The position numbers and the translations under genes were made by a program. Shown in pieces: positions 2,384 through 62,625 of a stretch of 62,625 nucleotides of DNA; the stretch's first letter is position 1, and every line of letters begins with the position of its first letter. This DNA comes from a virus, in IMG/VR virus record IMGVR_UViG_3300042475_004015, positions 1 through 62,625 of that record. The stretch is one strand, 5' to 3'. Below the pieces are notes generated by a model. That model was given only the letters and a program-made list of their open reading frames with translations. It was not told where the DNA came from and did not search any database.

Positions 2384-3169
2384 CTAAACTTTTGGGTATT
2401 TTGAAGTGATAAACTCTTCAGGTGCTACTAGGTCAGCGAAGATAAGGGGGAAGATTTCCTTAGCGTATGGTAGAATACAAAGACTTAGCCTTCTGATTTC
2501 AGCATCAGCACCCTCGCCACCTCTTAATTCTAAAAAGTGTCTTAATGCTCTTAGGTTACAAGTCATTACCAGCCTTGTTTCTGCAGCATTGGGTAGTAAA
2601 GATCTAGCTGTTTCATTGATACGCTTTTTAAGCTTACTAGGTACTTTAACGTCTGAGTTTATATACCCTAAGTCTTTTTGAAGGTTAATGTAAGCCTGTA
2701 AGCTATGGTCACAAGCAGTCTTAAAGTTATTAATAAGACCCTCATCATTCAAGTCAACTAACAAGGGCGGAATAACAAACTTTAGGTCTTTAGCATCTAC
2801 ATACCGTTGGGACTCTTGACTCCATGCAAAGCCAGCTCTATGACGAACAAGCTCGTGACTACAGGAACGTGAGATACCAGAGATAGCGAAGGAGATGCTT
2901 GAGTGCTCAAGAACAGAGCCGTGTCTTTGCTCTAGAATGTTCTCGATATACTGTTTGCTATCACGACCCTTTTCCCAGGACCGGTAGCAGTGTCTACCAG
3001 CAAACTCAACTAGCGCATCTGGTACCTTAGAAGTAAACAACTGATGTAGCGGGGTAGACTCGTTATCAGCTAGATCGCCTAAACTATGATAATCGACCCA
3101 GTAATCCAGGTTTTCATGACTCATCGTAGACCAAGCAATGGGTACTACTGTAGGTTGTGTAAGATACAT
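2384..3169 (-). CDS. thyX: Flavin-dependent thymidylate synthase
   Basis: 261 residues, usual ThyX length. Residues 109-123 (RHRAGFAWSQESQRY) are the ThyX signature, here one residue longer than the common RHRx7-8S form. RHGSVLEHSSISF (82-94) and the TRLVMTCNLRALRHFLELR segment match the family. ThyX makes dTMP from dUMP using FAD, NADPH and methylenetetrahydrofolate. It fits with the phage dCMP deaminase, which would supply dUMP. The two thymidylate-synthase-fold proteins elsewhere are then probably not making dTMP. It shares 25 bp with the upstream ribbon-helix-helix-like gene. Confidence 0.92.
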   Translation of the reverse strand: MYLTQPTVVPIAWSTMSHENLDYWVDYHSLGDLADNESTPLHQLFTSKVPDALVEFAGRHCYRSWEKGRDSKQYIENILEQRHGSVLEHSSISFAISGISRSCSHELVRHRAGFAWSQESQRYVDAKDLKFVIPPLLVDLNDEGLINNFKTACDHSLQAYINLQKDLGYINSDVKVPSKLKKRINETARSLLPNAAETRLVMTCNLRALRHFLELRGGEGADAEIRRLSLCILPYAKEIFPLIFADLVAPEEFITSKYPKV

Positions 3170-5939: not shown

Positions 5940-6434
5940 CTAGGATAATAATCTTTTCACAATACGATTCCTTACAAGATAAAGCTTATCTAGCAAAACA
6001 TCATTGCTAGTATCTGGTTGATTATCAAGCAAATATCCAATTAAGTCAGGATACCCTTTATAGTCCTTACCTAATGAGCCTCTATTAAAGATAGGTTTAA
6101 AATTAGCAGGTTTAAAGAAAAAGACATTAACTAAAATCCAATGTGGAATATCCTTTTGATCAGTGGGTGGTAGCGACCCTATTTGAGGGAACCCTAATTG
6201 TAAACAAAGATCATTATAACGATCTAACAACTTATCATTAAGCGTTATCGGGACCACTTTAAAATCATGAAACTTATTCTTAAGGCATCCTAAAGACTTA
6301 GTCCTACCTGTAGTAAGATTAACTTTTAAAACTTCTTTTGTTAAACCACAGTTACAGCTAACAATAGCTTTTGAGCCTTCTATAGATTTAACTGTCATAC
6401 AACCAAAAGGGTCACCTATATTAACTTTTTTCAT
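5940..6434 (-). CDS. Zinc-ribbon protein related to HNH/AP2 homing-endonuclease amino domains
   Basis: 164 residues. Residues 7-51 (GDPFGCMTVKSI, VSCNCGLTKEV, TGRTKSLGCL) match the short C-x-C ... GxTKSxGC module found at the start of phage AP2/HNH proteins. No HNH nuclease follows; the carboxy-terminal 100 residues are unrecognised. It is the first gene of the left minus-strand operon. Confidence 0.55.
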   Translation of the reverse strand: MKKVNIGDPFGCMTVKSIEGSKAIVSCNCGLTKEVLKVNLTTGRTKSLGCLKNKFHDFKVVPITLNDKLLDRYNDLCLQLGFPQIGSLPPTDQKDIPHWILVNVFFFKPANFKPIFNRGSLGKDYKGYPDLIGYLLDNQPDTSNDVLLDKLYLVRNRIVKRLLS

Positions 6435-6485
6435 CTTATATACTCTATAAATTGGGGTCTAATGTGTTCAGAAACACCAAAATCT

Positions 6486-6513
6486 ATATTAAATAAAATG
6501 ATAACTATATCAA
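6486..6513 (-). promoter_or_regulatory. Candidate promoter for the left minus-strand operon
   Basis: On the minus strand TTGATA (6513-6508) is followed by 16 bp and TAATAT (6491-6486), some 50 bp upstream of the zinc-ribbon gene start. It diverges from the plus-strand promoter at 6552. Confidence 0.5.
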
Positions 6514-6551
6514 ACTATTTCTTGTTGGTTATTTAACCCTTATATAACAGG

Positions 6552-6580
6552 TTGACCTAGTATTACTTTATAAATATCAT
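6552..6580 (+). promoter_or_regulatory. Sigma70-type promoter
   Basis: TTGACC, 17 bp, TATCAT, about 30 bp upstream of the small zinc-ribbon gene at 6614. Good match and spacing. Confidence 0.65.
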
Positions 6581-6613
6581 CTTTTCTATCAAAAACTATC
6601 TATGGGAGGAATC

Positions 6614-6748
6614 ATGGAAGAGGAAAATGAGGGCATAGAGTTTTGCCCATGCTGTGAACAATGGGTTGACGAGTTATTGCCATGCCCTACCGATGACTTT
6701 ACCAGGGTATGTTTTGCATGCCTGGAATCAATGGAAGAAGATGAGTAA
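6614..6748 (+). CDS. Very small zinc-ribbon protein
   Basis: 44 residues. A strong ribosome site (GGGAGGA, 6604-6610) precedes the ATG. Five cysteines (FCPCCEQW, LPCP, VCFACLE) are spaced like a CxxC...CxxC zinc ribbon, and both ends are acidic. Function unknown. It is followed after 3 bp by the next gene. Confidence 0.7.
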   Translation: MEEENEGIEFCPCCEQWVDELLPCPTDDFTRVCFACLESMEEDE

Positions 6749-6751
6749 ACT

Positions 6752-7000
6752 ATGAAAAAGTACACACAAAAAGACCTAGAGGATCACAACTTAATCACTA
6801 ATGTATATGATTTTGTAAGGGATAAATTCCGAACACCTTGGGACCCAGAAAATGATAGCTTTGAAAGCTGTCTTCTTTCAAGATCACAGGTCTCTGAAAT
6901 GTTTAGGCTGATGTCAGATGCGACAGGTGTAGAAAAATCGGATTTAATAATAACCTTTGCAAACCACTACAAAATCCCTAAAAGAGGAGAAAGTCTATGA
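6752..7000 (+). CDS. Unknown small protein
   Basis: 82 residues, no family recognised. SRSQVSEMFRLMSDATGVEKSDLI suggests helices. It overlaps the next gene by 4 bp (ATGA), so the three genes from 6614 likely form an operon. Confidence 0.65.
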   Translation: MKKYTQKDLEDHNLITNVYDFVRDKFRTPWDPENDSFESCLLSRSQVSEMFRLMSDATGVEKSDLIITFANHYKIPKRGESL

Positions 7001-7622: not shown

Positions 7623-7697
7623 GGTCGTCTAGTTCAATGGTAGAACGTCCCGCTCATAACGGGTTAGTTATCGGTTCGAGTCCGGTGGCGACCACCA
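7623..7697 (+). tRNA. tRNA-Met (CAT)
   Basis: 75 nt including an encoded CCA. The acceptor stem GGTCGTC pairs with GGCGACC (one G-T pair), the anticodon loop is CTCATAA and the T arm contains TTCGAGT. The anticodon CAT could be elongator Met, or Ile if C34 is modified to lysidine; I cannot tell which. The outer pair of the anticodon stem is a mismatch. Confidence 0.85.
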
Positions 7698-8008: not shown

Positions 8009-8085
8009 GACCTCTTAGCTCAACTGGATAGAGCACCTGCCTTCTAAGCAGGATGTTACAGGTTCGAGTCCTGTAGAGGTCGCCA
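8009..8085 (+). tRNA. tRNA-Arg (TCT)
   Basis: 77 nt with encoded CCA. Acceptor GACCTCT/AGAGGTC, anticodon stem CCTGC/GCAGG and loop CTTCTAA give anticodon TCT, which reads AGA. AGA is common in this phage, so the tRNA probably offsets a host shortage of that codon. Confidence 0.93.
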
Positions 8086-8353: not shown

Positions 8354-9157
8354 ATGGCCAATAACATTAGCGTAAAAGATTCCTCTGGAGTTACTCAAGT
8401 AGTTAAAACTACAGAGGTTTCGTCGGTACATACCCCTCACCAAAATGCTCAATTATATGTTAATGGTCAGGATGTTACCAACCTAAATCCTGTCCCGGTA
8501 GATACTGGGCTTACACCTTTAACTAATACTGAGTTAAGGGCTACAGCTGTGCCTGTGTCCGGTCCATTAACTGATGCTCAACTAAGGGCTACAGCAGTAC
8601 CGGTATCTGGCCCATTAACAGATGCCCAGTTAAGGGCTACTTCTATACCTGTAACGACTGGCGGATTAACTGATGCAGAGTTAAGAGCTACTCCAATCCC
8701 CGTTACCAGTAATGGACTAACTAATACTGAATTAAGGGCTACGGCTGTACCTGTAACAGGGCCTTTAACTGATGCTCAATTAAGGGCATCGTCAATCCCC
8801 GTTACTAGTAATGGACTAACTGATGCAGAGTTAAGAGCTGACCCTATCAGTGTAACGAGTGAATCTGCTGTAGCAGTAAGAATGCTTAATGCTTTAATAG
8901 CACCCCTTACTTATGCTTGTAACCAAGCAAACGGTAAACTCCGTGTTGATGTAGCAGGTGAGACTCTGGGTACTGTAACCACAGTATCTACTGTAACTAC
9001 AGTATCTACAGTATCTACTGTAACTACAGTATCTACTGTAAATACAGTATCTACTGTAACAAACCTGGCTCAGATTGGTTCTATAGCTGCTAACTCGCTT
9101 ATCCTTGATGCGATGTATAACCAATACGCAAATGGCGTTCGTGCTAATATAACTTAA
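8354..9157 (+). CDS. Repeat-containing virion-like protein
   Basis: 267 residues. From residue ~51 to ~165 there are seven imperfect 16-17-residue repeats of the form LTDAQLRATAVPV followed by SGP or TSNG. A second low-complexity tract (TVSTVTTVSTVSTV) lies at 210-232. Phage proteins with LTDxELRAxPVPV repeats are usually virion-associated (fibre, decoration or adhesion), though exact roles are unknown. The next gene also looks structural. The repeats could vary in number by recombination. Confidence 0.75.
   Translation: MANNISVKDSSGVTQVVKTTEVSSVHTPHQNAQLYVNGQDVTNLNPVPVDTGLTPLTNTELRATAVPVSGPLTDAQLRATAVPVSGPLTDAQLRATSIPVTTGGLTDAELRATPIPVTSNGLTNTELRATAVPVTGPLTDAQLRASSIPVTSNGLTDAELRADPISVTSESAVAVRMLNALIAPLTYACNQANGKLRVDVAGETLGTVTTVSTVTTVSTVSTVTTVSTVNTVSTVTNLAQIGSIAANSLILDAMYNQYANGVRANIT
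8515..8850 (+). repeat. Coding tandem repeats of about 48-51 bp
   Basis: Seven copies of a unit encoding LTD/NAxLRA-xPV, with synonymous differences between copies. A second tract, 8977-9060, alternates ACTGTA and TACAGT words, giving several small dyads in DNA. Confidence 0.8.
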
Positions 9158-19374: not shown

Positions 19375-19806
19375 ATGAGCGAGTTTACCGACCTGACTAC
19401 AGCAGTGGTCCATAATAATATCACCTACACGATAAGGCTAGAGTGGACTGGCTTCTCCCCATTGGATAATGATGATGGCTTTTGGCCTTCTAACGACCCG
19501 GAGGATCCTGGCTATGTATTGCCACAACACTATGAGCAAGCATGTCAGCAAGCTCGCCAAAGGTATACTGCTTGGTCTAATGATGAATGGTACTTTGCAG
19601 ATGTTCATATAGATGCGACTATGACTGTAAAGCTTGATCTCTACACCGATAGACAGGTGATCTTCACTAGTGTGGCGATCATAGGCGGTGTAGAGTCAGA
19701 TGATATTGAAAGTATCTGCTGCCTGGCAACTGTGGGTTTACTACCAAATGCTATAGAGTATACCGAGCAACTGATCAACAAAATGGCAACTTTAATACGG
19801 AGCTAA
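19375..19806 (+). CDS. Unknown conserved-looking phage protein
   Basis: 143 residues. WPSNDPEDPGYVLPQHYEQA and NDEWYFADVHIDATMTVKLD suggest a compact alpha-beta protein like those in many proteobacterial phages, without a known function. GGAGG ribosome site. Confidence 0.55.
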   Translation: MSEFTDLTTAVVHNNITYTIRLEWTGFSPLDNDDGFWPSNDPEDPGYVLPQHYEQACQQARQRYTAWSNDEWYFADVHIDATMTVKLDLYTDRQVIFTSVAIIGGVESDDIESICCLATVGLLPNAIEYTEQLINKMATLIRS

Positions 19807-19808
19807 TC

Positions 19809-20066
19809 ATGAAAGTTAAGCTGCATCACTATCTACATATTAAGGAGCAGATCCGCAACTCTGTGACAAAACAGCGAGCTGAAACTCATAAAAAGTTCCT
19901 TATATCAGAGGGCAGATACAAGTGTTTAGAGACTCGTTTAGTCTTTGACATCGCTTATATGGCGGACCTCTCGCGTTTCGTTAGTGATAACATCTACAGT
20001 TATGCAGATGATAGCCATTTAAAAACAGCCTACAGGAGGGCTTGTTTAGAGCTTGGTTTACTGTAA
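19809..20066 (+). CDS. Unknown small basic protein
   Basis: 85 residues, helical. No family recognised. Last gene before the non-coding iteron region. Confidence 0.55.
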   Translation: MKVKLHHYLHIKEQIRNSVTKQRAETHKKFLISEGRYKCLETRLVFDIAYMADLSRFVSDNIYSYADDSHLKTAYRRACLELGLL

Positions 20067-20078
20067 ATAGTTACTTTT

Positions 20079-20220
20079 TATACAGGTTAAGCTTTTTTAA
20101 GACTTACATAATAGCGGTTTTTATACAGGCCAAGGTTTTTTAAGATTTACATAATAGCACTTATTGTAAATCATAAGGTTTTTTAAGGTTTACATAATAT
20201 CACTTATTGTATAGGCTAAG
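20079..20220. repeat. 43-bp tandem repeats (iteron-like)
   Basis: Units start near 20079, 20122, 20165 and 20208. Each contains TATACAGG-like then TTTTTTAAGRYTTACATAAT. Three full units and a partial one, diverged by a few bases. Confidence 0.8.
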
Positions 20221-20221
20221 A

Positions 20222-20254
20222 GTTTTTCAGCATAAAATGTAAATGTTGAAAAAC
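20222..20254. other. 12-bp stem-loop next to the iterons
   Basis: GTTTTTCAGCAT (20222-20233) pairs with ATGTTGAAAAAC (20243-20254) with one G-T pair and a 9-nt loop. No T run follows, so it may serve replication more than termination. Confidence 0.6.
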
Positions 20255-21481: not shown

Positions 21482-21749
21482 TTTTGGCTATATAGGTGGC
21501 GAGTTTTGGGAAAGACCTGAAATTAAAGGTTTTAAATTCTATTGGAATGTAGCTGTGATACTTAGACACCCTTTGTTACATAATGGGGCCCTAAGTTTAA
21601 TAGCAGACCATTTTAATATACCTAATTATACATTAGAAACTGTTGAAGATTTAGCAGATTTTATGGTAATCAATGGCTATTGTGATTGGTCCCTTAAAAA
21701 TGTTAGTAAAAATGTCTGGATTTTAAAATATGGAGAGAGAAATGACTGA
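21471..21749 (+). CDS. Unknown small protein
   Basis: 92 residues. GGAG ribosome site. Aromatic-rich start (FGYIGGEFWERPEIKGFKFY). No family recognised. Overlaps both neighbours. Confidence 0.55.
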   Translation: MMNDFGYIGGEFWERPEIKGFKFYWNVAVILRHPLLHNGALSLIADHFNIPNYTLETVEDLADFMVINGYCDWSLKNVSKNVWILKYGERND

Positions 21750-21981
21750 AGTAAGTGAAAGACTGGAGAGCTACATCGAAAGATTAGAGAATCTACATGC
21801 AGAGATTAAAGACCTTAAAGGGGATATAAAGCTTGTATTAAAAGAGGCTAAATCAGAAGGGCTTGAACCAAAGGCTTTAAAAGCGATTGTATCCATGAAG
21901 AAGAAAGGCCTAGAAACGGTCAGGGAAGAGATGACCACCGTAGAGATGTACTGTAGTGCTATTGGGATTGAGATCTCCTAA
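21742..21981 (+). CDS. GapR/DUF2312-like nucleoid protein
   Basis: 79 residues from ATG 21742 (GGAGAG upstream). RLESYIERLENLHAEIKDLK and IKLVLKEAKSEGLEPKALKA match the DUF2312 signature (YIeRIErLeeEkk...DIkdvyaEAKgnGfd.KalR). GapR of alphaproteobacteria binds AT-rich, overtwisted DNA and supports replication. This is one of the better host clues. It lies about 540 bp upstream of the very AT-rich island. Confidence 0.8.
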   Translation: MTEVSERLESYIERLENLHAEIKDLKGDIKLVLKEAKSEGLEPKALKAIVSMKKKGLETVREEMTTVEMYCSAIGIEIS

Positions 21982-22520
21982 AAAGTGCCTTAAGGAAAAG
22001 GGCCTAGCCCTAAAAGGGCCTAAGCTTAAAAGTCCTTTAATAAAGATAACATAAAAGCCTGTAGAAAAAGCTACCATACAAGTAAAGTAAATATGGTTAT
22101 TCTCTACAGGCTTATTAGTAGGTAATCGAGCACTATAGTAGTTTTGTTTAGCACTAATTTATACAAGTTACCATTTGTAATATAGTAAAGATTATTCATC
22201 ACCCATGTTGGATTAACAGTAAATAAGTATAGGTTGTTTCCAGCAAATAGCACTGTTATTAGCTGAAAATAGATAGTACATAAGGATAGTTTTATAAAGG
22301 TATTTAAGTTCTAGTCTCTAGCTATGGATGTTCATTAAACATACCAATAATTATTTTTACTAACAGCAAGTAATTCTTACCAAAAATAAGTTATCAAAAA
22401 AAATCAAAGTACTAGAAGTAAATTGGTAGAGAGCTTTATGCAGGTGTAAGAAAAAATTGGTAGAGACAAATTGGTAGAGACCTTTTGTGGCGGTGACAGA
22501 GATGGCAACATATATGTGGG
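21982..22520. other. Non-coding region with hairpin and direct repeats
   Basis: No credible gene. AAGCCTGTAG (22055-22064) pairs with CTACAGGCTT (22104-22113), and ACCATA/TATGGT can pair inside the loop, giving a large cruciform or RNA hairpin. Three copies of AAATTGGTAGAGA lie at 22420, 22454 and 22468, just before the AT-rich island. They could be protein-binding sites. Confidence 0.55.
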
Positions 22521-22527
22521 TTTAATT

Positions 22528-22604
22528 AAATTCATCATAAATTCATCATAAATTCATCATAAATTCATCATAAATTCATCATAAATTTATCATAAATTTA
22601 TATC
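22528..22604. repeat. 11-bp tandem repeats, left end of island
   Basis: Five perfect copies of AAATTCATCAT, then two degenerate copies (AAATTTATCAT, AAATTTATATC). Period 11 is close to a helical turn, so the A-tracts are phased and may bend DNA. Confidence 0.9.
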
Positions 22605-22794
22605 AATTTTTAATTAAATAATATCCCTAAAATATATATCAAATTTTATATAAAAATAATCATATATCAAAATGAATTTGAATCAACCTTTTTTGTGTGT
22701 TGTGTTGTGTGACATATATATATGTATAAATTTTTTTCACCCCCATACATTTTTTTGTTGCATCATGAAAAAAAATTTTTTAATGTGATTTTAT

Positions 22795-22821
22795 TGATCA
22801 TCACACAACACACAATGATCA
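22795..22821. promoter_or_regulatory. Operator-like inverted repeat before island gene 1
   Basis: TGATCAT (22795-22801) and ATGATCA (22815-22821) form a dyad 35 bp upstream of the ATG. The leader copy of gene 2 has a longer version. Candidate binding site for the HTH protein of gene 1. Confidence 0.45.
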
Positions 22822-22855
22822 TGTTCAACACAACACAAAATGAAATGACACAATC

Positions 22856-23290
22856 ATGAAAAATACACACAACACAAAACAAAAAAAACATTTAAACATT
22901 GTTTCAAATGATGAAACAATTTTAAATGATGTTTCACATGAAACAATTTTAAATGATGTTTCAAATGATGAAACAAAAATCAATTTAAATGAATTTCAAC
23001 AATTTAAACATTTTGAAAATATCAAATTGTTTATTGAAACAAACAAAAATGATTTTTTCAAATTGACACAAATTGCAAAATTAATACAATGTGATGCAAA
23101 AACATTGAGACAAAAATTTAGAAAAATTTATGCAATTTTTGATCAATCAAAATTGACACAAATTGTTGCATCACAAAATGACAATGAAAAATGGTTGTTT
23201 GCATTTAATGAAAAAAATTTATTAAATGTTTTGAAAATGTCATACATGCAAAATATAAAAATTGAAATGCAATTATTAAAAATTGCATAA
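22856..23290 (+). CDS. Island gene 1, helix-turn-helix-like protein
   Basis: 144 residues, no Gly or Pro. Residues ~66-94 (FFKLTQIAKLIQCDAKTLRQ, then KFRKIYA) read as the small phage HTH domain with a ...LAxxLgvdaKtLRxxLRk core. The only two Arg (85, 89) and the only Trp (113) are encoded by the only three rule-breaking sites in 1.3 kb, so the protein appears to be selected. Residues 18-40 hold a repeat (NDETILNDVS, HETILNDVS). No ribosome site is possible with this composition; the leader is A-rich. It may regulate both island genes. Confidence 0.6.
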   Translation: MKNTHNTKQKKHLNIVSNDETILNDVSHETILNDVSNDETKINLNEFQQFKHFENIKLFIETNKNDFFKLTQIAKLIQCDAKTLRQKFRKIYAIFDQSKLTQIVASQNDNEKWLFAFNEKNLLNVLKMSYMQNIKIEMQLLKIA

Positions 23291-23305
23291 TCAATACATG
23301 AAATG

Positions 23306-23344
23306 ATTGTGTGATATGTGAAAATGTATCACACAATTTTTTTT
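23306..23344. terminator. Intrinsic terminator after island gene 1
   Basis: Perfect 11-bp stem ATTGTGTGATA (23306-23316) and TATCACACAAT (23327-23337), 10-nt loop, then seven T. It obeys the CA/TG rule throughout. Confidence 0.85.
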
Positions 23345-23396
23345 CATCATCATTCATTTTTTTGTTGCATGATGAAAAAAAATATGACATGATATA

Positions 23397-23424
23397 AACA
23401 TGATCAAAACAAAATGATCATGTT
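23397..23424. promoter_or_regulatory. Operator-like inverted repeat before island gene 2
   Basis: Perfect 10-bp dyad AACATGATCA/TGATCATGTT around an 8-nt spacer, 33 bp before the ATG. The following leader to the ATG is nearly identical to that of gene 1 (22813-22858 against 23412-23459). Confidence 0.55.
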
Positions 23425-23456
23425 CACAACACAACACAAAATGAAATGACACAATC

Positions 23457-23921
23457 ATGAAAAACACAATACACATAATGAACACAATGAACATAAAACA
23501 CAACATCACATTTGATGTGAATGATGAAAATTTTAATATAAATGATGTTGATTTTTATCATAAAAACATATTTGATGATATGTATAATCAATATAAATTA
23601 AACATTGATAAAATTGAATACAATGAACATGAAAAAAATTTTTTTCATCATTTTATAAATTTATTTGATAAAAAACAATTTAATAAAATTGTTATTGATT
23701 TTTTGTATATTATGAATCAATTTTGTGAACAACACACAAAAAATGATAAAAACATTTTTTTGCAAAATGTTTTATTTGAAAATGATTTTTATGAATATAT
23801 CAATAAAATATGTTTTGACAATTTATGTGATATTGATGATTTGTTTTGTTTGATTGATCATCATGATGATTATAATGATGTTCAATGTGATATATTATTT
23901 AATAACATTGTAAACAATTAA
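23457..23921 (+). CDS. Island gene 2, unknown acidic Asn-rich protein
   Basis: 154 residues with no Ala, Gly, Pro, Arg, Ser or Trp. It is rich in Asn, Asp, Ile, Phe and Lys and likely helical (FFHHFINLFDKKQFNKIVID). The reading frame is intact, starts in a duplicated leader and ends before a perfect terminator, which argues for a real gene. No family recognised; the acidic tail (DIDDLF, HHDDYND) could suit a DNA mimic, but this is speculation. Confidence 0.5.
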   Translation: MKNTIHIMNTMNIKHNITFDVNDENFNINDVDFYHKNIFDDMYNQYKLNIDKIEYNEHEKNFFHHFINLFDKKQFNKIVIDFLYIMNQFCEQHTKNDKNIFLQNVLFENDFYEYINKICFDNLCDIDDLFCLIDHHDDYNDVQCDILFNNIVNN

Positions 23922-23979
23922 ATCAATGTATTCATGATGATGTATATTGTTATATAATGCACATTATGACAAATCAATA

Positions 23980-24018
23980 AATGATGCAACACATAAAAAT
24001 GTTGCATCATTTTTTTTA
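23980..24018. terminator. Intrinsic terminator after island gene 2
   Basis: Perfect 11-bp stem AATGATGCAAC (23980-23990) and GTTGCATCATT (24001-24011), 10-nt loop, then a run of T. It obeys the CA/TG rule. Confidence 0.85.
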
Positions 24019-24091
24019 TTTATATATATCAAATTTTATTTAATCTTTATACACATTTAATGTGTATTGCAACCTTTTAATAATACATACA

Positions 24092-24157
24092 ATTTAATAT
24101 ATATTTAATACATATTTAATACATATTTAATACATATTTAATACATATTTAATATAT
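24092..24157. repeat. 11-bp tandem repeats, right end of island
   Basis: Six units in register: four perfect ATTTAATACAT flanked by two ATTTAATATAT. Same period as the left array but a different sequence. Confidence 0.9.
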
Positions 24158-24320
24158 ATTTTAACCATCACTATCTCCCCATCCATACCACCCCCACACC
24201 TATTTATTGTCAAGCACAGAAATTAGGGGATAGATACAAGAGAAATTATTACTTGGCCAAAGTATTTTCACTTTTAGGTTCAAAAAATTATAAGGGGTAA
24301 ACCTGCTATAGGGAAAAATC

Positions 24321-24349
24321 TTGTATTTCTATATTTCATAGATTATGAT
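24321..24349 (+). promoter_or_regulatory. Sigma70-type promoter for the DUF932 gene
   Basis: TTGTAT, 17 bp, TATGAT, 33 bp upstream of the ATG at 24383. Confidence 0.6.
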
Positions 24350-24382
24350 TATCTATCACTAATCATCAACTAAGGAGTTCTT

Positions 24383-25336
24383 ATGTCACACGAAATCGAA
24401 ACTATCGCATATACGAATGAAGTACCTTGGCACGGCCTTGGGACTTATATCCAAGATGCACCCTCTGTAGACGACATGCTAATAAAAGCAGGACTTGATT
24501 GGACTGTAGTGAAAGCTCCAGTACACGCTGAACACGATACCGGCCTTGTATCAACTAACGAACATTTTGCTCTTGTTCGTAGCACTGACGGCAAAATACT
24601 TGACGTCTGTGGAAAACACTACATCCCAGTACAAAATCGGGACGCTTTAGGGTTCTTTCGATCCTTTGTAGAGGCTGGCGATGCTACTCTTGAAACTGCG
24701 GGTTCACTAAAAGGCGGTAGAAACATTTGGGGACTAGCTAACCTCGGTCAAAACTTCCACCTGAAGAACAACACATCCGACCAATTAAAGTCGTACTTGC
24801 TTATCTCTTCACCTCACGAGGTCGGTAAATCACTACAGATTAAATTTACTTCTGTCCGTGTAGTGTGTAACAACACGCTAACCCTTGCTTTAAACTCGGC
24901 TGCTCAATTCCGTATGTCTCACAGAGTGCAGTTCGACGAGTTCAATCAAGAGCGAGCTCGTGAAGTACTTGGCATTGCAAGAGATGAGTCTAAACAGTTC
25001 GAGCAAACAGCTAATCTACTCTCTACACAAAAATTGTCTCATGATGACATTATCCGAGTGCTACAACCCGTCTATCAACCTGACCATAATCCTGTAGATC
25101 TTATTAATAGTTCCGACAAGTACTTGTCACCAACTATTAAAGCGATCATGTATGCTAACGAAAATGCACCAGGTGCCGACCCCACCACTGCATGGGGACT
25201 GTTAAATGCAGTAACATACTACTCCGACCATGTAGCATCTAGGTCTGTAGATAAACGCATGTATAACGCATGGTTCGGCAAAACTGCTAATCATAAAGAA
25301 AAAATACTTAACACGCTAGTTTCTATGGCTGCATAG
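24383..25336 (+). CDS. DUF932 / phage-plasmid-like protein (TIGR03299 type)
   Basis: 317 residues, AAGGAG ribosome site. PWHGLGTYIQDAPSVDDML, WTVVKAPV, HFALVRSTDGKIL and TSVRVVCNNTLTLAL are the hallmarks of DUF932, which is common on phages and plasmids. Function unknown; the family often sits near replication or recombination genes. It is a monocistronic unit with its own promoter and terminator, and composition returns to normal here after the island. Confidence 0.88.
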   Translation: MSHEIETIAYTNEVPWHGLGTYIQDAPSVDDMLIKAGLDWTVVKAPVHAEHDTGLVSTNEHFALVRSTDGKILDVCGKHYIPVQNRDALGFFRSFVEAGDATLETAGSLKGGRNIWGLANLGQNFHLKNNTSDQLKSYLLISSPHEVGKSLQIKFTSVRVVCNNTLTLALNSAAQFRMSHRVQFDEFNQERAREVLGIARDESKQFEQTANLLSTQKLSHDDIIRVLQPVYQPDHNPVDLINSSDKYLSPTIKAIMYANENAPGADPTTAWGLLNAVTYYSDHVASRSVDKRMYNAWFGKTANHKEKILNTLVSMAA

Positions 25337-57084: not shown

Positions 57085-59546
57085 TTTTCTAAACTAACTC
57101 CTTTGCTCCATGGACCAATCTGTGCTTCACCCAGTATGGGGACCCGAAGGTCAACACCAAACTCTTCTAATAGGTCAGGGCCAGACATCACCTGTAGTAT
57201 CCTGTTATAAACTTCTTCTACATACTCATCTTTAACCAAAAACATAGTAGCATCATGAACTGTACCAATAACCCTAACTTTGTCTACACCATATTCTCTA
57301 GAGATCTGCAGGGCAGTCATTAGGTTTAGGTCATTAGCGAATGATTGAACGGGTGAATTAATAGCTTGCCTTTCAGCTTCTTTCTTACCTGGTGTATCAT
57401 AAGTAGCTTTAGCTTCTGGTAATCTTCTCTTTCTACCGATAAGGCTTTCTACATAACCATACCTTTTTGCAAAGCTTTTTTGTTCATTATGCCATTCCAA
57501 AAACTTTGGGTATAGTTCAAAGAAGGCATCTCGGCTAGCTCTAGCTTCATCGTCAGTAACAGTTACCCCATAATTATCACGAGCATAGTCTTTAAACTTT
57601 ACCCACCACATGCCATACAAAAACCCAAAGTTAATAGCTTTAGCTTTTTTTCTTAACTCTTTCCAACCCTTATCAAATTCTTGAGATTTTTCAGGGCCAT
57701 ACTTTAATAGTACCTGTATAGCCTCGCCATAATTAAGGGGCTTATCTGGGAGTACGTCATACTTTTTTAGTAAGCAAGTAGCTGTATGTTTTATTAACTC
57801 AGGTTGACTACCCTGCCTACCTAACTCCCTTATCAAGGTTAACCAGTGAACATCTACACCTGTAGCAAAAGCGTGTAACATAGTTGTCTCATTAGCTACC
57901 TCAGCAGCTACTCTTAACTCAATTTGTGAAAGGTCAGCGTCTATTAATTGCCAACCTTCGGGTGCTGTTATTAAGGACCTTATTCTTGGATCCCGTGGTA
58001 CTTGCTGTAGGTTAGGTCTTTCACAAGATAACCTGCCGGTCACTGTACCATGAAGCTTAAAGCTAGGGTGTAGTGTACTGTCTACAATAAAGGGTTTCCA
58101 GCCTTCAATGAAAGCACTCAGTTGTTTTGATGCCTCTCGGTATCTTAGTAGTGAGGCACACATGGGATGGTCTATTTGTTTAATAACAGACTCGCTTGTA
58201 GCTCTACCGCCTTTAGGTGTGTATGACACTACAGGTATATTAAGCTTATCATAGAGTAGCTCACCAAGCTGTTTAGGTGAATTCCAGTTTGTACCTGGGC
58301 CCCACTTTTCAAGTACTTTTAATGCTTCAGTAAGCTCATTCTTTAGGTAGTCCTCAGCATCCTGCATTTTTGACAGGTCAATATAGATACCGTAGTATTC
58401 TATAGTTATAAATAACCTTACACAGGGCATAATGATTTTATCAAAGACCCTTTTAGTTTTAGGCTCTTTAGCTAACCTTTTGCTAAATATACTATAAAGC
58501 TTTAAAGTGTATAATAAGTCTAGCCCATGATACTTAGATACTACTTCTAAAGTACCGCTAATTTTATCCTCACCACCAATGTCATAACTCGGTGCACCAC
58601 AGTAAATAGTAGCTAAGTATTTTAAACCATGTTGACTATTTTCATCCAATGAATAGTGAGCCATCATAGTATCAAAGTCTAAGTACCAATCTACCTTATA
58701 GTGTACTTTCATCCATAGCATATCAAACTTGCCATTATGAGCAACAAGAATACAGTCTTGAAGTTTGTCGGTTAACTCTCTTACTATCGCTTTTCTGTTA
58801 CGATAACCCCATAAGGAGTATTGTTTGGCTAAAGGGATAGACCATTGAAAATTCTTAGTACCAAAGCCGATAAAGTTTATCTCTGCACCATTATCCCATG
58901 GATAAAGACCAGTAGTTTCTATATCAAAAGACACTACACCCTTAAGGTCATTCATCATCTCGTCAAAGGTTTCGTCATCATTTACGACCCTAAGGTTAAG
59001 TGATTCTTCTTCTAATAATCCGCCGTTTTGAATTAAACTGCTAAAAGTTGATAAGTCAGCCTCAACTACAGAGGATAATGCTGGGTCATATAAAAGGTTA
59101 CTTATAGAATAAGTTGGCATATATACTATATCGTTAACCTTAAGCGGTTTACCTCTAGCTTTCTTTATACCCTTTATCTCAAGTGCCGATTGCAATGCTA
59201 CGTTACCTAGCAGTAGGATAAATTTAGGCTTAACTAACTCTATCTCTTTTTGTAGCCAATACCGACAAGCATTTATCTCAGTCTTTGTAGGGTCTTTATC
59301 ACCAGGTTTTCTACAGTGAACTGCGTAGGTATAATAGTAGTCTTGTATACCTGCACTAGATAACAGATCGTGAACACTCTGACCATACTTGCTACTATAA
59401 GCTCTATCACATTCATCATCCTCCCGAGAAGGCGAGTCAATGATAACCATCACTAATGACTTAACATCTGTAGAGTAGTTACCTAATAAGCATACACTTT
59501 GGCAACCAGAGGACAGTTTACATTTAGTACAGTTTATATCCCTCAT
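57069..59546 (-). CDS. DNA polymerase I family protein with amino-terminal uracil-DNA-glycosylase-like domain
   Basis: 825 residues. Residues 1-175 resemble family 4 UDG: CTKC (6-9), DSPSREDDECDRAY and a later Cys pair (HCRKPGDKDPTKTEINAC) for an iron-sulfur cluster. Residues ~200-345 form the 3'-5' exonuclease (VVSFDIETTGL, AHNGKFDML). The polymerase has NWNSPKQLG, TGRLSCERPNLQQVPR, DADLSQIELR (motif A), KAINFGFLYGM (motif B) and GTVHDATMF (motif C, where the usual HDE is HDA). UDG-polymerase fusions are known in some phages (SPO1-like). Replicative enzyme. Confidence 0.9.
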   Translation of the reverse strand: MRDINCTKCKLSSGCQSVCLLGNYSTDVKSLVMVIIDSPSREDDECDRAYSSKYGQSVHDLLSSAGIQDYYYTYAVHCRKPGDKDPTKTEINACRYWLQKEIELVKPKFILLLGNVALQSALEIKGIKKARGKPLKVNDIVYMPTYSISNLLYDPALSSVVEADLSTFSSLIQNGGLLEEESLNLRVVNDDETFDEMMNDLKGVVSFDIETTGLYPWDNGAEINFIGFGTKNFQWSIPLAKQYSLWGYRNRKAIVRELTDKLQDCILVAHNGKFDMLWMKVHYKVDWYLDFDTMMAHYSLDENSQHGLKYLATIYCGAPSYDIGGEDKISGTLEVVSKYHGLDLLYTLKLYSIFSKRLAKEPKTKRVFDKIIMPCVRLFITIEYYGIYIDLSKMQDAEDYLKNELTEALKVLEKWGPGTNWNSPKQLGELLYDKLNIPVVSYTPKGGRATSESVIKQIDHPMCASLLRYREASKQLSAFIEGWKPFIVDSTLHPSFKLHGTVTGRLSCERPNLQQVPRDPRIRSLITAPEGWQLIDADLSQIELRVAAEVANETTMLHAFATGVDVHWLTLIRELGRQGSQPELIKHTATCLLKKYDVLPDKPLNYGEAIQVLLKYGPEKSQEFDKGWKELRKKAKAINFGFLYGMWWVKFKDYARDNYGVTVTDDEARASRDAFFELYPKFLEWHNEQKSFAKRYGYVESLIGRKRRLPEAKATYDTPGKKEAERQAINSPVQSFANDLNLMTALQISREYGVDKVRVIGTVHDATMFLVKDEYVEEVYNRILQVMSGPDLLEEFGVDLRVPILGEAQIGPWSKGVSLEKWKSK

Positions 59547-60007
59547 GGCATTATTACCTTATTGTTAGAGTGATCGAGTAGATATCCTGATGGGGTAACT
59601 TGGTATACTTCTATACCGCTTTTAATCAATAGTGCTAATGATGTGGTATCTCTGTATGCTACTTCATAATATACAGCTTTAATGCCAGCAGCCATTAGTT
59701 TTTCAGCACACACTAGGCACGGTGAGTGTGTTACATAAATTGACTTATCTTTAGCCCATTCACTATTTGGGATAAACCGTATAGCATTATCCTCGGCATG
59801 AAGACTTTTACTGCATCCACCACTTGTTGATAAAGGGCAGTGATTACCTTTGCAGTGTTCTTCACCTGATGGTGAGCCATTATAGCCAATAGAAACTACA
59901 CGGTTCTCTACAACTATAACACAGCCTACATTTAAGCGATGGCAGGTAGACCGTTTTGAGGCTGAACGGGCCATTTCCATAAACATCTGGTTACGACTTA
60001 TTCTCAT
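59543..60007 (-). CDS. dCMP deaminase
   Basis: 154 residues. LHAEDNAI (zinc His and catalytic Glu) and SPCLVCAEKL (two zinc Cys), plus NVGCVIV and GYNGSPSGEEHC. It makes dUMP from dCMP, the substrate of ThyX. ATGA overlap with the polymerase gene. Confidence 0.93.
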   Translation of the reverse strand: MRISRNQMFMEMARSASKRSTCHRLNVGCVIVVENRVVSIGYNGSPSGEEHCKGNHCPLSTSGGCSKSLHAEDNAIRFIPNSEWAKDKSIYVTHSPCLVCAEKLMAAGIKAVYYEVAYRDTTSLALLIKSGIEVYQVTPSGYLLDHSNNKVIMP

Positions 60008-60016
60008 AGGGTTGCT

Positions 60017-60856
60017 TTATTTAGGTGAACCAAAAAGTGTGATGTAGTCATTTACAAACAAGTGTAGGCTTACGATGTGCATAGTAAAAAGTCCAGGCCT
60101 AATTTTGTTCCAATAGTCTGGGTCCCTTAGTCTTAGTTGGTCAAGTACCCAAAGTTGTAGTAGTACAGTCAAGTAAATGTCATCTCTAAAGTGTCTAACA
60201 AAATCACAAGACCTTAGGTAGTAAGTGATGTGTAACTTATCCTGCCTTACTATAAAATGATACCCTAAACTACATGGTATTCTACCGCCATTAACACAGC
60301 CAGTATCCTCTGGGAAAAAGACTGGTAAATAAGCTTGCCTTGTAAGTGGCTGTTCTTTTAAAAGTTTCACCAAGTCGTTAAGATCACCCAATATCGTATC
60401 AGGCCTTACACCTCTATTAAACTTAAAGTGGTCATGGTATGGACTTGTAGGGTCACATATAGTACCACTAAGCTCACCTTGATCGGTTAACCCAGCATAA
60501 GTCGGCCAATATCTCTCCATATAGTTATGGTTAAATTGACCGTTAGCATCACGGAACTTATCGGCAGAGTGACTGTAGGGCCAGTTTGCCCACTCTTTAC
60601 CAGGGTTAAGGGGCTCACCACATACTCTTTCCTTAAAGTGGTCATCCGCCCACGGTAAGTTTGGCTGTATTGCTTTAGCTAATACCGACCTGTCTTCAGT
60701 CTGAACTTCGCAAGTAAAAGAGTGGTTTAATAACTCATAAGTAGTCATAGCACCTTGTTTTGATATGTCTAAACCTTGCCATTTTTCGGTGTGAACTTTA
60801 TAAGACTTATTTTTAAGCCTTATTTTAGCATCTTCTATATATACTTCAAAACTCAT
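60017..60856 (-). CDS. Thymidylate-synthase-fold enzyme 1, possible dCMP hydroxymethylase
   Basis: 279 residues. RIPCSLGYHFIV carries the TS nucleophile Cys. YYLRSCDFVRHFRDDIYL aligns with the RSxDxxxGxPFNI segment, with Asp at the place of the dUMP-selecting Asn (E. coli N177). TMHIVSLHLFVND parallels the H-x-Y-x-N-H motif. Asn to Asp there is known to favour dCMP, and T4 dCMP hydroxymethylase has Asp. So it may make 5-hydroxymethyl-dCMP. ThyX already supplies dTMP. Overlaps the next family member. Confidence 0.7.
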   Translation of the reverse strand: MSFEVYIEDAKIRLKNKSYKVHTEKWQGLDISKQGAMTTYELLNHSFTCEVQTEDRSVLAKAIQPNLPWADDHFKERVCGEPLNPGKEWANWPYSHSADKFRDANGQFNHNYMERYWPTYAGLTDQGELSGTICDPTSPYHDHFKFNRGVRPDTILGDLNDLVKLLKEQPLTRQAYLPVFFPEDTGCVNGGRIPCSLGYHFIVRQDKLHITYYLRSCDFVRHFRDDIYLTVLLQLWVLDQLRLRDPDYWNKIRPGLFTMHIVSLHLFVNDYITLFGSPK

Positions 60857-61619
60857 TTAGGTAATCCTTTGCTAGTTTTATTATTCTTCTTGTTTCTGCT
60901 GGGTAAAGTAAAGAGCGAGCCCTATCTCTTGTAACAGTAGCTTGTTTAAACTTTAATATACCCCTATCGTCGTCAAGGTATTTTAACGTCCACCTCATAA
61001 CATAACGAGAAAACCTATCACTCTTATCGAGTGCCTTATAAAACTCCATAGGAGAGTCATAGAGTGCAGCTGCCGTAAGAAAATACATAGGATGAAGAGT
61101 GATATTTGCAAAGTGACAATTTACACTCTTTAGCTTAACCTCTTTAAAGTTAAAACCTGGTATCAAATTGTTATAGATAAAGTAAAGATCAGCAGGAAAC
61201 TTTTTAAAAAGTTCGGTAGTCCTGTAGAAGATATCCATCTCAGCATGGTCTTTGTCTAGGTGGGAAATAACCACCGACTGTAAACAGGGCCCTCTTGTGC
61301 TTACTTTTTCTAATGGGGAGGTTGCACCGGGTTTTATCAAGTGATTATAACAATGGAAAGATGTGCTAGAGTATTTACCTCTTTCTACAAAATAATCCCA
61401 CATTTGGATAGCCTTGTCATAACTTTCCTGATGTAGGTACAATTTTTTAAGCATACTGATCTTGGTTTTAGTATAGCCAATATCCAATAGATCAATATCG
61501 GAGGTTGGTGACTCAAAACGAATACTCCTTGAGCGAAAAATCTTCCTTTCGGCAGCGTATAAGTCACCCGGTTGACCCACTAATAATAAACAAGCATTAA
61601 GCCATTGATTAGTTAGCAT
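60846..61619 (-). CDS. Thymidylate-synthase-fold enzyme 2
   Basis: 257 residues. RGPCLQSVVIS holds the Cys, FYRTTELFKKFPADLYF aligns with RSxDxxxGxPFNI and again has Asp at the Asn position, and VNCHFANITLHPMYF parallels the His motif. The first ~100 residues are helical and specific to this protein. It may form a heteromer with enzyme 1 or act on another pyrimidine. Confidence 0.65.
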   Translation of the reverse strand: MLTNQWLNACLLLVGQPGDLYAAERKIFRSRSIRFESPTSDIDLLDIGYTKTKISMLKKLYLHQESYDKAIQMWDYFVERGKYSSTSFHCYNHLIKPGATSPLEKVSTRGPCLQSVVISHLDKDHAEMDIFYRTTELFKKFPADLYFIYNNLIPGFNFKEVKLKSVNCHFANITLHPMYFLTAAALYDSPMEFYKALDKSDRFSRYVMRWTLKYLDDDRGILKFKQATVTRDRARSLLYPAETRRIIKLAKDYLNEF

Positions 61620-61800
61620 TAATTATGCCCCCTTTAAAGATATTGATAAGGTTATCATGGTTATTTTTAACCTCCTCTGGCTCGCTAGCTGTTTCAACTA
61701 CAAACTCGTCACTATATAGTTCAGAGTTAGTATACTCTACTACAGCCAATAAACCTTTAAGTAGGTCATTTTCTGTTATGGTAATTTGTTTATTAGTCAT
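61609..61800 (-). CDS. Unknown small acidic protein
   Basis: 63 residues, Glu/Asp/Asn-rich (FVVETASEPEEVKNNHDNLI). It overlaps both neighbours by a few bp within the nucleotide operon. No family recognised. Confidence 0.6.
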   Translation of the reverse strand: MTNKQITITENDLLKGLLAVVEYTNSELYSDEFVVETASEPEEVKNNHDNLINIFKGGIINAN

Positions 61801-62625
61801 AAGAAGGGTCTTTCAATAAATCTATAAGTACAGGAGCTTTCCAGCCTTGTGGTTTAACTACGTCAAGAACAGAGCCTCTTTTACTTTGAGAACTATCAGT
61901 TGCACGAATTTTAGCCATATTGGCTGCATGAACTCTCTCCCAACCCTTAATAAAAGGAAAACCATGTAGATAAGCAGTACCCAATAATACATAAGCTAAG
62001 TCTACAAGGCCGTCAAATGCCTTTTCTAAATGCTCTAGAGATTCTGGTGACTGATAACCAGGCAAAGCTATTTGATTAATAGTATTATGATAGTTCTTCA
62101 TAGCTTCTACATACTCGTCGAGTTCTTCCTGCATAAACTTTATCCTAAAGTCTTCCATATCACCAGGTAAGGCTCGTGGGCCTGACTCATAATCTAGGCC
62201 AAACTTCTGATGAAAGAGTGCTATGTCTACTACTGGATTAAAAGCATAAATACGACTTATTAAGTCAGGTATACTATCACCTATCCGGTAAATAAGGTGG
62301 GCATTATTAACTGCCCAATCATCATACTCAGCACTAAGTGAGTCGTATTTTTCATCGATTAAGTTTAGATATTCCGGCTCATCATATTCTTTATTTACGT
62401 GGCCTTCCATTCTGTTAAGTGCTTTACAGTAAATAAATATAGGCTTAGAGCTATAAAATTGATCTACAAGCTCATCATCTATTTTTGTATTCTTAACTAT
62501 CAGAGAATAAAGGGTTTGAGACACTACAGGGTGCCGGTCATAAATAACTGACCGTTTATCCTGTAGGTATTTTTTTACTCTTTCGTTAATCTCGCCTGGG
62601 TATTTTTCTCTACCTTCACTAGCCC
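61793..62625 (-). CDS. Nucleotide kinase-pyrophosphohydrolase fusion, 3' part
   Basis: This completes the 306-residue protein that starts at 215. Residues ~165-306 are an all-alpha NTP pyrophosphohydrolase (MazG/PRA-PH-like): FMQEELDEYVEAM with the metal-binding Glu cluster, AFDGLVDLAYVLLGTAYLHG, GWERVHAANMAKI and a basic KRGSVLDVVKPQGW end. Such enzymes cut dNTPs to dNMPs. Fused to a dNMP kinase, the pair could remove an unwanted dNTP and re-phosphorylate a modified dNMP. The last 127 bases repeat the window start. Confidence 0.85.
   Translation of the reverse strand, partial: ASEGREKYPGEINERVKKYLQDKRSVIYDRHPVVSQTLYSLIVKNTKIDDELVDQFYSSKPIFIYCKALNRMEGHVNKEYDEPEYLNLIDEKYDSLSAEYDDWAVNNAHLIYRIGDSIPDLISRIYAFNPVVDIALFHQKFGLDYESGPRALPGDMEDFRIKFMQEELDEYVEAMKNYHNTINQIALPGYQSPESLEHLEKAFDGLVDLAYVLLGTAYLHGFPFIKGWERVHAANMAKIRATDSSQSKRGSVLDVVKPQGWKAPVLIDLLKDPSYD
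62499..62625. repeat. Right copy of 127-bp terminal overlap
   Basis: Identical to 1-127; see the left copy. The coding frame of the kinase fusion passes through unbroken, which supports joining the ends. Confidence 0.95.

Follow-up and report, generated by a model that had tools for sequence, protein, structure and literature searches.

A dinucleotide-restricted island in a viral genome and the RpG/CpY deserts of related phages

The window analysed here (the whole 62,625 nt of IMG/VR virus record IMGVR_UViG_3300042475_004015) contains an island of 1.3 kb in which, with three exceptions, each C precedes A and each G comes after T. The island is one case of a conserved kind of segment, termed here an RpG/CpY desert, which has almost no AG, GG, CC or CT and was detected in 21 of the 46 genomes examined. 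The desert pattern is upheld by selection, not by mutational bias, and CpY is lacking primarily from the template strand of the genes, although many deserts are free of it on both strands. The explanation favoured here, in which the desert is an early transcription unit cleared of template-strand CpY, where transcription would be blocked, is offered tentatively, and as a whole it is given rather less than an even chance of being correct. We know of no earlier case of a phage clearing all CC, CT, AG and GG from one short gene island while the rest of the genome is ordinary, and a literature search covering openly licensed articles found no description of such deserts.

The island of the window and its relatives

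All dinucleotides were recounted over the whole window. Within the core island CT, CC and CG are absent and there are two AG and one GG, against zero-order expectations of 47.6, 14.2, 13.7, 58.2 and 13.2, respectively, and CA (136, expected 60) and TG (128, expected 46) are correspondingly frequent. These three forbidden dinucleotides in 1,301 bases compare with 147 expected from shuffles, and the minimum among 2000 shuffles that kept the island's base composition was 125, which bears out the claim of the preliminary description that the region is not merely low in G+C. That description had reported CT, CC, CG, AG or GG at only three sites, and exactly three were recovered (Table 1). It had also recognised that the 3' neighbour of C (equivalently, the 5' neighbour of G) decides, which proved to be the key clue. 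Outside the island, 70% of the C residues of the window are without a 3' A and 70% of the G residues without a 5' T.

The two halves of the rule differ in reach. 'G only after T' extends over a wider zone on the + strand, and the exceptions at the island edges are all CC or CT on that strand. The DNA on both sides had been thought to behave normally; this stands for 'C only before A', which is confined to the core island, but not for the other half of the rule, which the flanks obey on one strand. Of the three internal exceptions, two fall in Arg codons (AGA) and the third in a Trp codon (TGG), all within ORF1. The Arg/Arg/Trp residues are conserved in the relative L004 (described below), which uses CGA and CGC for the two Arg. 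CpG is also low in the DNA flanking the island (observed/expected 0.56–0.69), and its loss is peculiar to the AT-rich lineage of the window, the general desert rule being 'no AG, GG, CC, CT'.

Table 1. Coordinates (nt) of the features of the window discussed in the text
Feature	Position	Strand	Basis or remark
GapR-like DNA-binding protein, left neighbour of island	21730–21981	+	PF10073, E 1.6e-19
Three TTGGTAGAGA repeats, just outside left edge of island	22423–22482	+	GGTAG enriched upstream of deserts (see text)
Wider one-strand zone, G only after T except in 3 ORF1 codons; CC/CT tolerated at edges	about 22521–24212	+	counts
11-bp tandem repeat TAAATTCATCA, 6.5 copies, left edge	22527–22598		repeat search
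Core island, C restricted to CA and G to TG	22744–24044	both	dinucleotide counts
ORF1, 144 aa, variable tail and C-terminal HTH-like domain (K..LR..FR....W)	22856–23290	+	homologues in deserts of other phages
Three exceptions (AG 23108, AG 23120, GG 23193)	23108–23194	+	ORF1 codons
ORF2, 154 aa	23457–23921	+	translation; comparison with L005
11-bp tandem repeat ATACATATTTA, 6.9 copies, right edge, then C-rich tract	24087–24161		repeat search
DUF932 protein, right neighbour of island	24383–25336	+	same place in L004, L005, L006
dCMP deaminase	59543–60007	-	resembles that of Polewnik
Thymidylate-synthase (TS)-superfamily pyrimidine hydroxymethylase, Asp at TS N229 position (dCMP-type)	60017–60856	-	sequence
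Second TS-fold protein, 257 aa, closest fold phage dCMP hydroxylase AfhB (9iqu)	60846–61619	-	predicted structure
MazG/PRA-PH-like nucleotide pyrophosphohydrolase	61793–62524	-	

In related contigs, three distinct island sequences occupy one and the same place. Contigs L004 (IMG/VR 3300008110_000102) and L006 (3300034010_000700) have 11 kb in common at 99.98% identity, and their island includes a 1,133-base run without any forbidden step. Its genes are partly different from those of the window, ORF1 being 64% and ORF2 about 36% identical, and ORF1 of L004 follows a one-strand version of the rule, in which G on the + strand obeys and C does not (22 CC, 13 CT). A third related contig, L005, has a DUF932 protein 100% identical to that of the window, adjoined by a strongly diverged ORF2 allele that still abides by the rule. 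The islands of diverged relatives thus retain the rule even though their sequences have changed. The same islands, namely the 11 kb found in two contigs and the diverged alleles that keep the rule, exclude a chimera, and with deserts also present in isolate genomes (see below) an assembly artefact of any kind, in favour of which nothing was found, is extremely improbable. Import from a foreign element, one of three sources proposed in the preliminary description, is contradicted by the constant place of the island in related phages and by the deserts of sequenced isolates.

ORF1 is under purifying selection, and its AF2 model is of low confidence (pLDDT 37.7). ORF2, from which Gly, Pro, Arg and Trp are all absent, evolves very fast (dN 0.39 and dS 0.36 against L005), its replacement sites changing as fast as silent ones, and it looks like an arms-race gene. 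Between nt 23457–23921 of the window and nt 60–542 of L005, where there is a tandem duplication, amino acid identity is 47%, directly beside the invariant DUF932 protein. Neither ORF has a confident Pfam or PHROG match; for ORF1 there was no confident match among PDB sequences, no match in the phage collection and none in a scan of bacterial genomes, and the island DNA matched nothing in the phage and plasmid collections. Upstream of the DUF932 gene lies a strongly conserved non-coding leader (nt 24190–24380, and 5530–5690 in L004; AAATTATTACTTGGCCAAAGTATT...), which was seen in related contigs only and has no Rfam match.

The record carries a 127-bp identical direct repeat at both ends, as a complete circular assembly would show. 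Its structural genes resemble those of Mesyanzhinovviridae such as M6 and YuA, and its polymerase, exonuclease, Sak4-like protein, dCMP deaminase and thymidylate-synthase-like gene resemble those of Brevundimonas phage Polewnik. The Rfam search returned tRNAs only, and the window has genes for tRNA-Met and tRNA-Arg (anticodon tct, reading AGA) at nt 7623–7697 and 8009–8085. Elsewhere, an AT-rich segment at nt 20073–20227 has 3.6 copies of a 43-bp tandem repeat, and the coding sequence of a 267-aa gene contains tandem repeats with a unit of about 50 bp (period 48–51, also 99 and 150) at nt 8535–8839.

Deserts in other phages: occurrence, selection and strand

An IMG/VR scan with the 257-aa neighbour of the hydroxymethylase yielded 46 loci, and contigs were scored by maximal-segment log-likelihood, a desert being a maximal segment with an LLR above the shuffle maximum of 16.1 (920 shuffled genomes). 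By this definition the island of the window scores 115 for RpG and 113 for CpY. The strongest desert reaches 194, the weakest calls (G016 and G038, LLR 20) are short, and no genome without a desert, lambda, YuA, M6, Serbin and PMBT14 among them, scores much above 14. The preliminary description had proposed searching related phages for similar segments and had implied that nothing similar exists elsewhere; the search was rewarded, and the implication does not hold. Normally there is one desert per genome, 0.2–3 kb in length. In the cleanest, that of G027 (1.49 kb), not one of 250 G follows a purine and not one of 253 C precedes a pyrimidine, and CpG is frequent in it. Two of the desert genomes come from phages of Brevundimonas that have been isolated and sequenced, Polewnik and Strzyga. 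Polewnik (59% GC) has a one-strand desert of about 2.8 kb, at 4.0–6.8 kb of its genome, with 66 RpG among 632 G versus 435 CpY among 1,023 C, and its relative Strzyga has a one-strand desert in mirror image. Some deserts are rich in G+C (0.59 in Polewnik, 0.63 in G007). The word GGTAG occurs upstream of deserts at 6.5 per kb, compared with 0.79 per kb genome-wide.

In one-strand deserts G declines from about 29% to 22–24% and C rises from 29% to 37–39%, while the shares of A and T in Polewnik and Strzyga remain roughly constant, and the CpG observed/expected ratio increases from 1.1–1.2 to 1.7–1.8 (2.4–3.1 in two-strand, GC-rich deserts). Polewnik and Strzyga differ by isolated substitutions at a rate of 0.056 per base within the desert, as against 0.070 in other parts. 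Only 7% of those in the desert touch RpG, compared with 33% elsewhere, and CpY on the unconstrained strand changes freely. Purifying selection on one strand predicts this pattern of substitution, and a local deaminase does not. A local mutational process, either C-to-T deamination or a repair defect at CpY or else A-to-G change at TpA in the AT-rich lineage, is highly improbable. The change from RpG to RpA does resemble alkylation or deamination signatures, and the counts of the window fit the notion that all C:G pairs come from TpA, but C-to-T deamination cannot yield GC-rich deserts, as CpG is enriched and G is replaced by C, and in-desert mutation is normal apart from RpG. Among the sources first proposed, selection against a set of words is therefore the one that fits, given a normal substitution rate with few RpG changes and exceptions at Shine-Dalgarno sites and some conserved codons, while a deaminase or repair defect fails on the 1.7–3.1-fold rise of CpG in relatives, the replacement of lost G by C and the normal mutation rate of the desert.

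Several more specific candidates were tried and rejected. A deaminase or alkylation signature fits the window alone and is contradicted by the composition and substitutions of relatives. Protection of C by a 3' A is needless, since relatives tolerate CpG, and avoidance of CRISPR PAMs would need a genome-wide effect and leaves the CpG loss of the window unexplained.

Significant strand asymmetry was found in 8 of 19 desert genes, and all eight have less RpG than CpY on the coding strand (p = 0.008), although Polewnik and Strzyga are close relatives, so that there are about seven independent cases. A coding strand (mRNA) cleaner of RpG means a template strand without CpY. Some deserts are misfits to this simple template reading: the clean strand of Polewnik runs on through a convergent annotated gene (6288–6752), the strongest RpG-free block of ctuI7215 is on the strand opposite to the local genes, and there are two-strand deserts such as that of G027, where both strands are clean over about 1 kb of non-coding DNA.

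These observations bear on two other proposals. The island could be a replication origin or partition region, cleared of CpY to prevent priming on one or both strands, since primases typically start at such steps. For an iteron origin of the plasmid or phage kind, the 11-bp repeats at its two edges would be the candidate iterons. The single island per genome, its AT-richness in the window, the flanking 11-bp and GGTAG repeats and the passage of the Polewnik clean strand through the convergent gene, independent of gene direction, are all consistent with such a role. It is nevertheless distinctly unlikely, as several deserts are GC-rich and made mostly of genes, the coding-strand asymmetry follows genes, and no primase specificity is known for these phages. 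Selection could also act on mRNA, with early transcripts avoiding RpG as the target of an endoribonuclease or RNA-binding factor. Coding-strand RpG is indeed the half commonly cleaned, but the Shine-Dalgarno sequence AAGGA, which would be the first target, is retained, and in G027 both strands of the non-coding DNA are clean; this proposal is considered very unlikely.

Desert proteins and neighbouring TS-fold enzymes

Nearly every desert codes for a small protein (about 94–154 aa) in which an HTH-like K..R..LR motif precedes a turn containing tryptophan; most of these proteins also have a tail that is basic or of low complexity. ORF1 belongs to this type. Homology of these proteins was shown by profile search for six deserts and is deduced from the common motif for the others, and the G007 desert codes instead for an acidic protein, with an HTH gene just outside. 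Desert genes have 0–3 Gly, GGN codons being barred by the rule; Trp usually occurs once or twice, and AAA is the predominant Lys codon. At Shine-Dalgarno windows of deserts 23 of 54 G are in RpG, versus 104 of 1,196 in the remaining leader sequence; neither the window nor L004 has an RpG-bearing Shine-Dalgarno site.

The constancy of the motif raises the possibility of self-exemption, in which the desert protein acts on nucleic acid at RpG/CpY, for example as a roadblock to transcription that serves host shutoff, and the target is missing from the gene that encodes it and from adjacent genes, with no DNA modification needed. Besides the presence of one protein motif type in nearly every desert, the strand bias is consistent with an effect on transcription, and the Alc protein of phage T4 is a precedent for a phage-made factor of this kind (PMC8076793). 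Against this, in five genomes with a close partner gene a strong ORF1-type gene sits in nearly ordinary DNA without a desert, several paralogues per genome lie in ordinary DNA, and the desert of G007 encodes the acidic protein; self-exemption is accordingly judged unlikely, and ORF1 as an obligatory desert partner was rejected on the same five genomes. In G022, G025 and G036 there are only desert traces of 77–142 bp beside the ORF1-type gene. Genomes have several copies each of the K..R..LR..GW HTH-like domain (e.g. L019 nt 564–797, 945–1508 and 19772–20212); the domain is also fused to helicase C-termini in P744 and Lebethron, and has no Pfam family above cut-off.

All 21 desert genomes encode a hydroxymethylase-type enzyme that carries Asp where TS has N229 and, adjacent to it, a second TS-fold protein. 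The hydroxymethylase of the window has an RDDI motif, and its best PDB matches are MilA and the TS N229D mutant; Asp at the Asn229 position, as in dCMP- and CMP-specific members, points to the dCMP rather than the dUMP type. A flavin-dependent ThyX (nt 2384–3169) is encoded as well, giving the window two thymidylate-synthase-type genes. The model of the 257-aa TS-fold protein is confident (pLDDT 86.8), and it matches AfhB (9iqu; E 1.7e-5) and next thymidylate synthases and dCMP/CMP hydroxymethylases. This protein falls into a close and a distant subfamily: of the 37 genomes with the former, 21 have a desert, whereas none of the 6 with the latter does, and there are none in M6, YuA or lambda. 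The 16 close-subfamily genomes without a desert include some incomplete contigs, although not obviously all are, and the association is confounded by shared ancestry. A gene-content comparison of desert and other genomes revealed no clear CpY-specific modification enzyme. One HTH-like gene family, about 1.2 kb from the desert, stood out (10 of 17 desert genomes versus 2 of 23 others, p 0.001 uncorrected); its members (G014:5666–6226, G015:30089–30649, G017:32145–32726) have a weak HTH match only.

Proposed mechanism and comparison with known systems

In the favoured explanation, template CpY would be where transcription stops in these phages, either because a modified cytosine at CpY stops the unadapted host RNA polymerase or because an Alc-like termination factor acts there. 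The island would hold genes that need to be transcribed regardless, probably early after DNA entry, and would therefore have evolved without CpY, exceptions staying where translation or protein function demands them (Shine-Dalgarno sites, some conserved Arg and Trp codons). Published work makes both versions plausible. Bulky base modifications block bacterial RNA polymerase, and those on the template strand inhibit T7 RNA polymerase more than those on the non-template strand (PMC11550810), while on DNA with unmodified cytosine, transcription is terminated by T4 Alc (PMC8076793, citing Kashlev 1993). Two observations are not required by a template-only model and count against it, namely the cleaning of coding strands and the 1 kb of clean non-coding DNA in G027. 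The favoured explanation is also weakened by the 16 close-subfamily genomes that have no desert, five of them with a strong ORF1-type gene in nearly ordinary DNA, and by the strand misfits of Polewnik and ctuI7215.

A broader proposal is that the deserts reflect a widespread, undescribed dinucleotide code, in which the CpY-free template island of cytosine-modifying phages is marked for transcription and DNA with CpY, be it that of the host or modified DNA of the phage, is silenced through a modification or factor that the phage makes, the lineage of the window having added CpG; its chances are put only slightly below even. If the island escapes a modification or silencing factor, its sequence directly reveals the context rule of that system, and the small DNA-binding-type proteins and the TS-fold enzyme family would then belong to a pathway of host takeover or DNA modification. 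As Polewnik and Strzyga have been isolated and their host is cultivated, the idea is open to testing now.

The T4 Alc system (PMC8076793) is similar in that cytosine modification by the phage is tied to site-dependent termination on cytosine DNA, from which phage genes are exempt; T4 is exempt through DNA modification and not by clearing dinucleotides from one island, and no homologue of Alc was identified in the present analysis, in which ORF1 gave no confident match in Pfam or among PDB sequences. The cytosine modifications of other phages (T4 5hmC; the pentose of Thanatos, PMC12838424; AfhB, 9iqu) likewise involve a TS-superfamily dCMP enzyme, a dCMP deaminase and a pyrophosphohydrolase, but the cited portion of PMC12838424 mentions no desert or dinucleotide rule, and the second TS-fold protein of the desert phages belongs to an unassigned family. 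In the thymidine hypermodification (TG/TC) of M6, ViI and phi W-14, the base to be modified is chosen by its 3' neighbour (PMC6449724), and M6 is related to the window in structural genes. There, however, T is modified, in the context TS; a desert is absent from M6, and only its structural, polymerase and helicase proteins match those of the window, its modification genes being without a match; TS-context hypermodification was also rejected for the island, where TG is abundant. Finally, the avoidance of restriction sites and CRISPR PAMs by phages also involves short words removed by selection, but in the cited parts of PMC4687349 and PMC4246573 it is genome-wide, whereas here it is limited to one short island with sharp borders and a strand bias.
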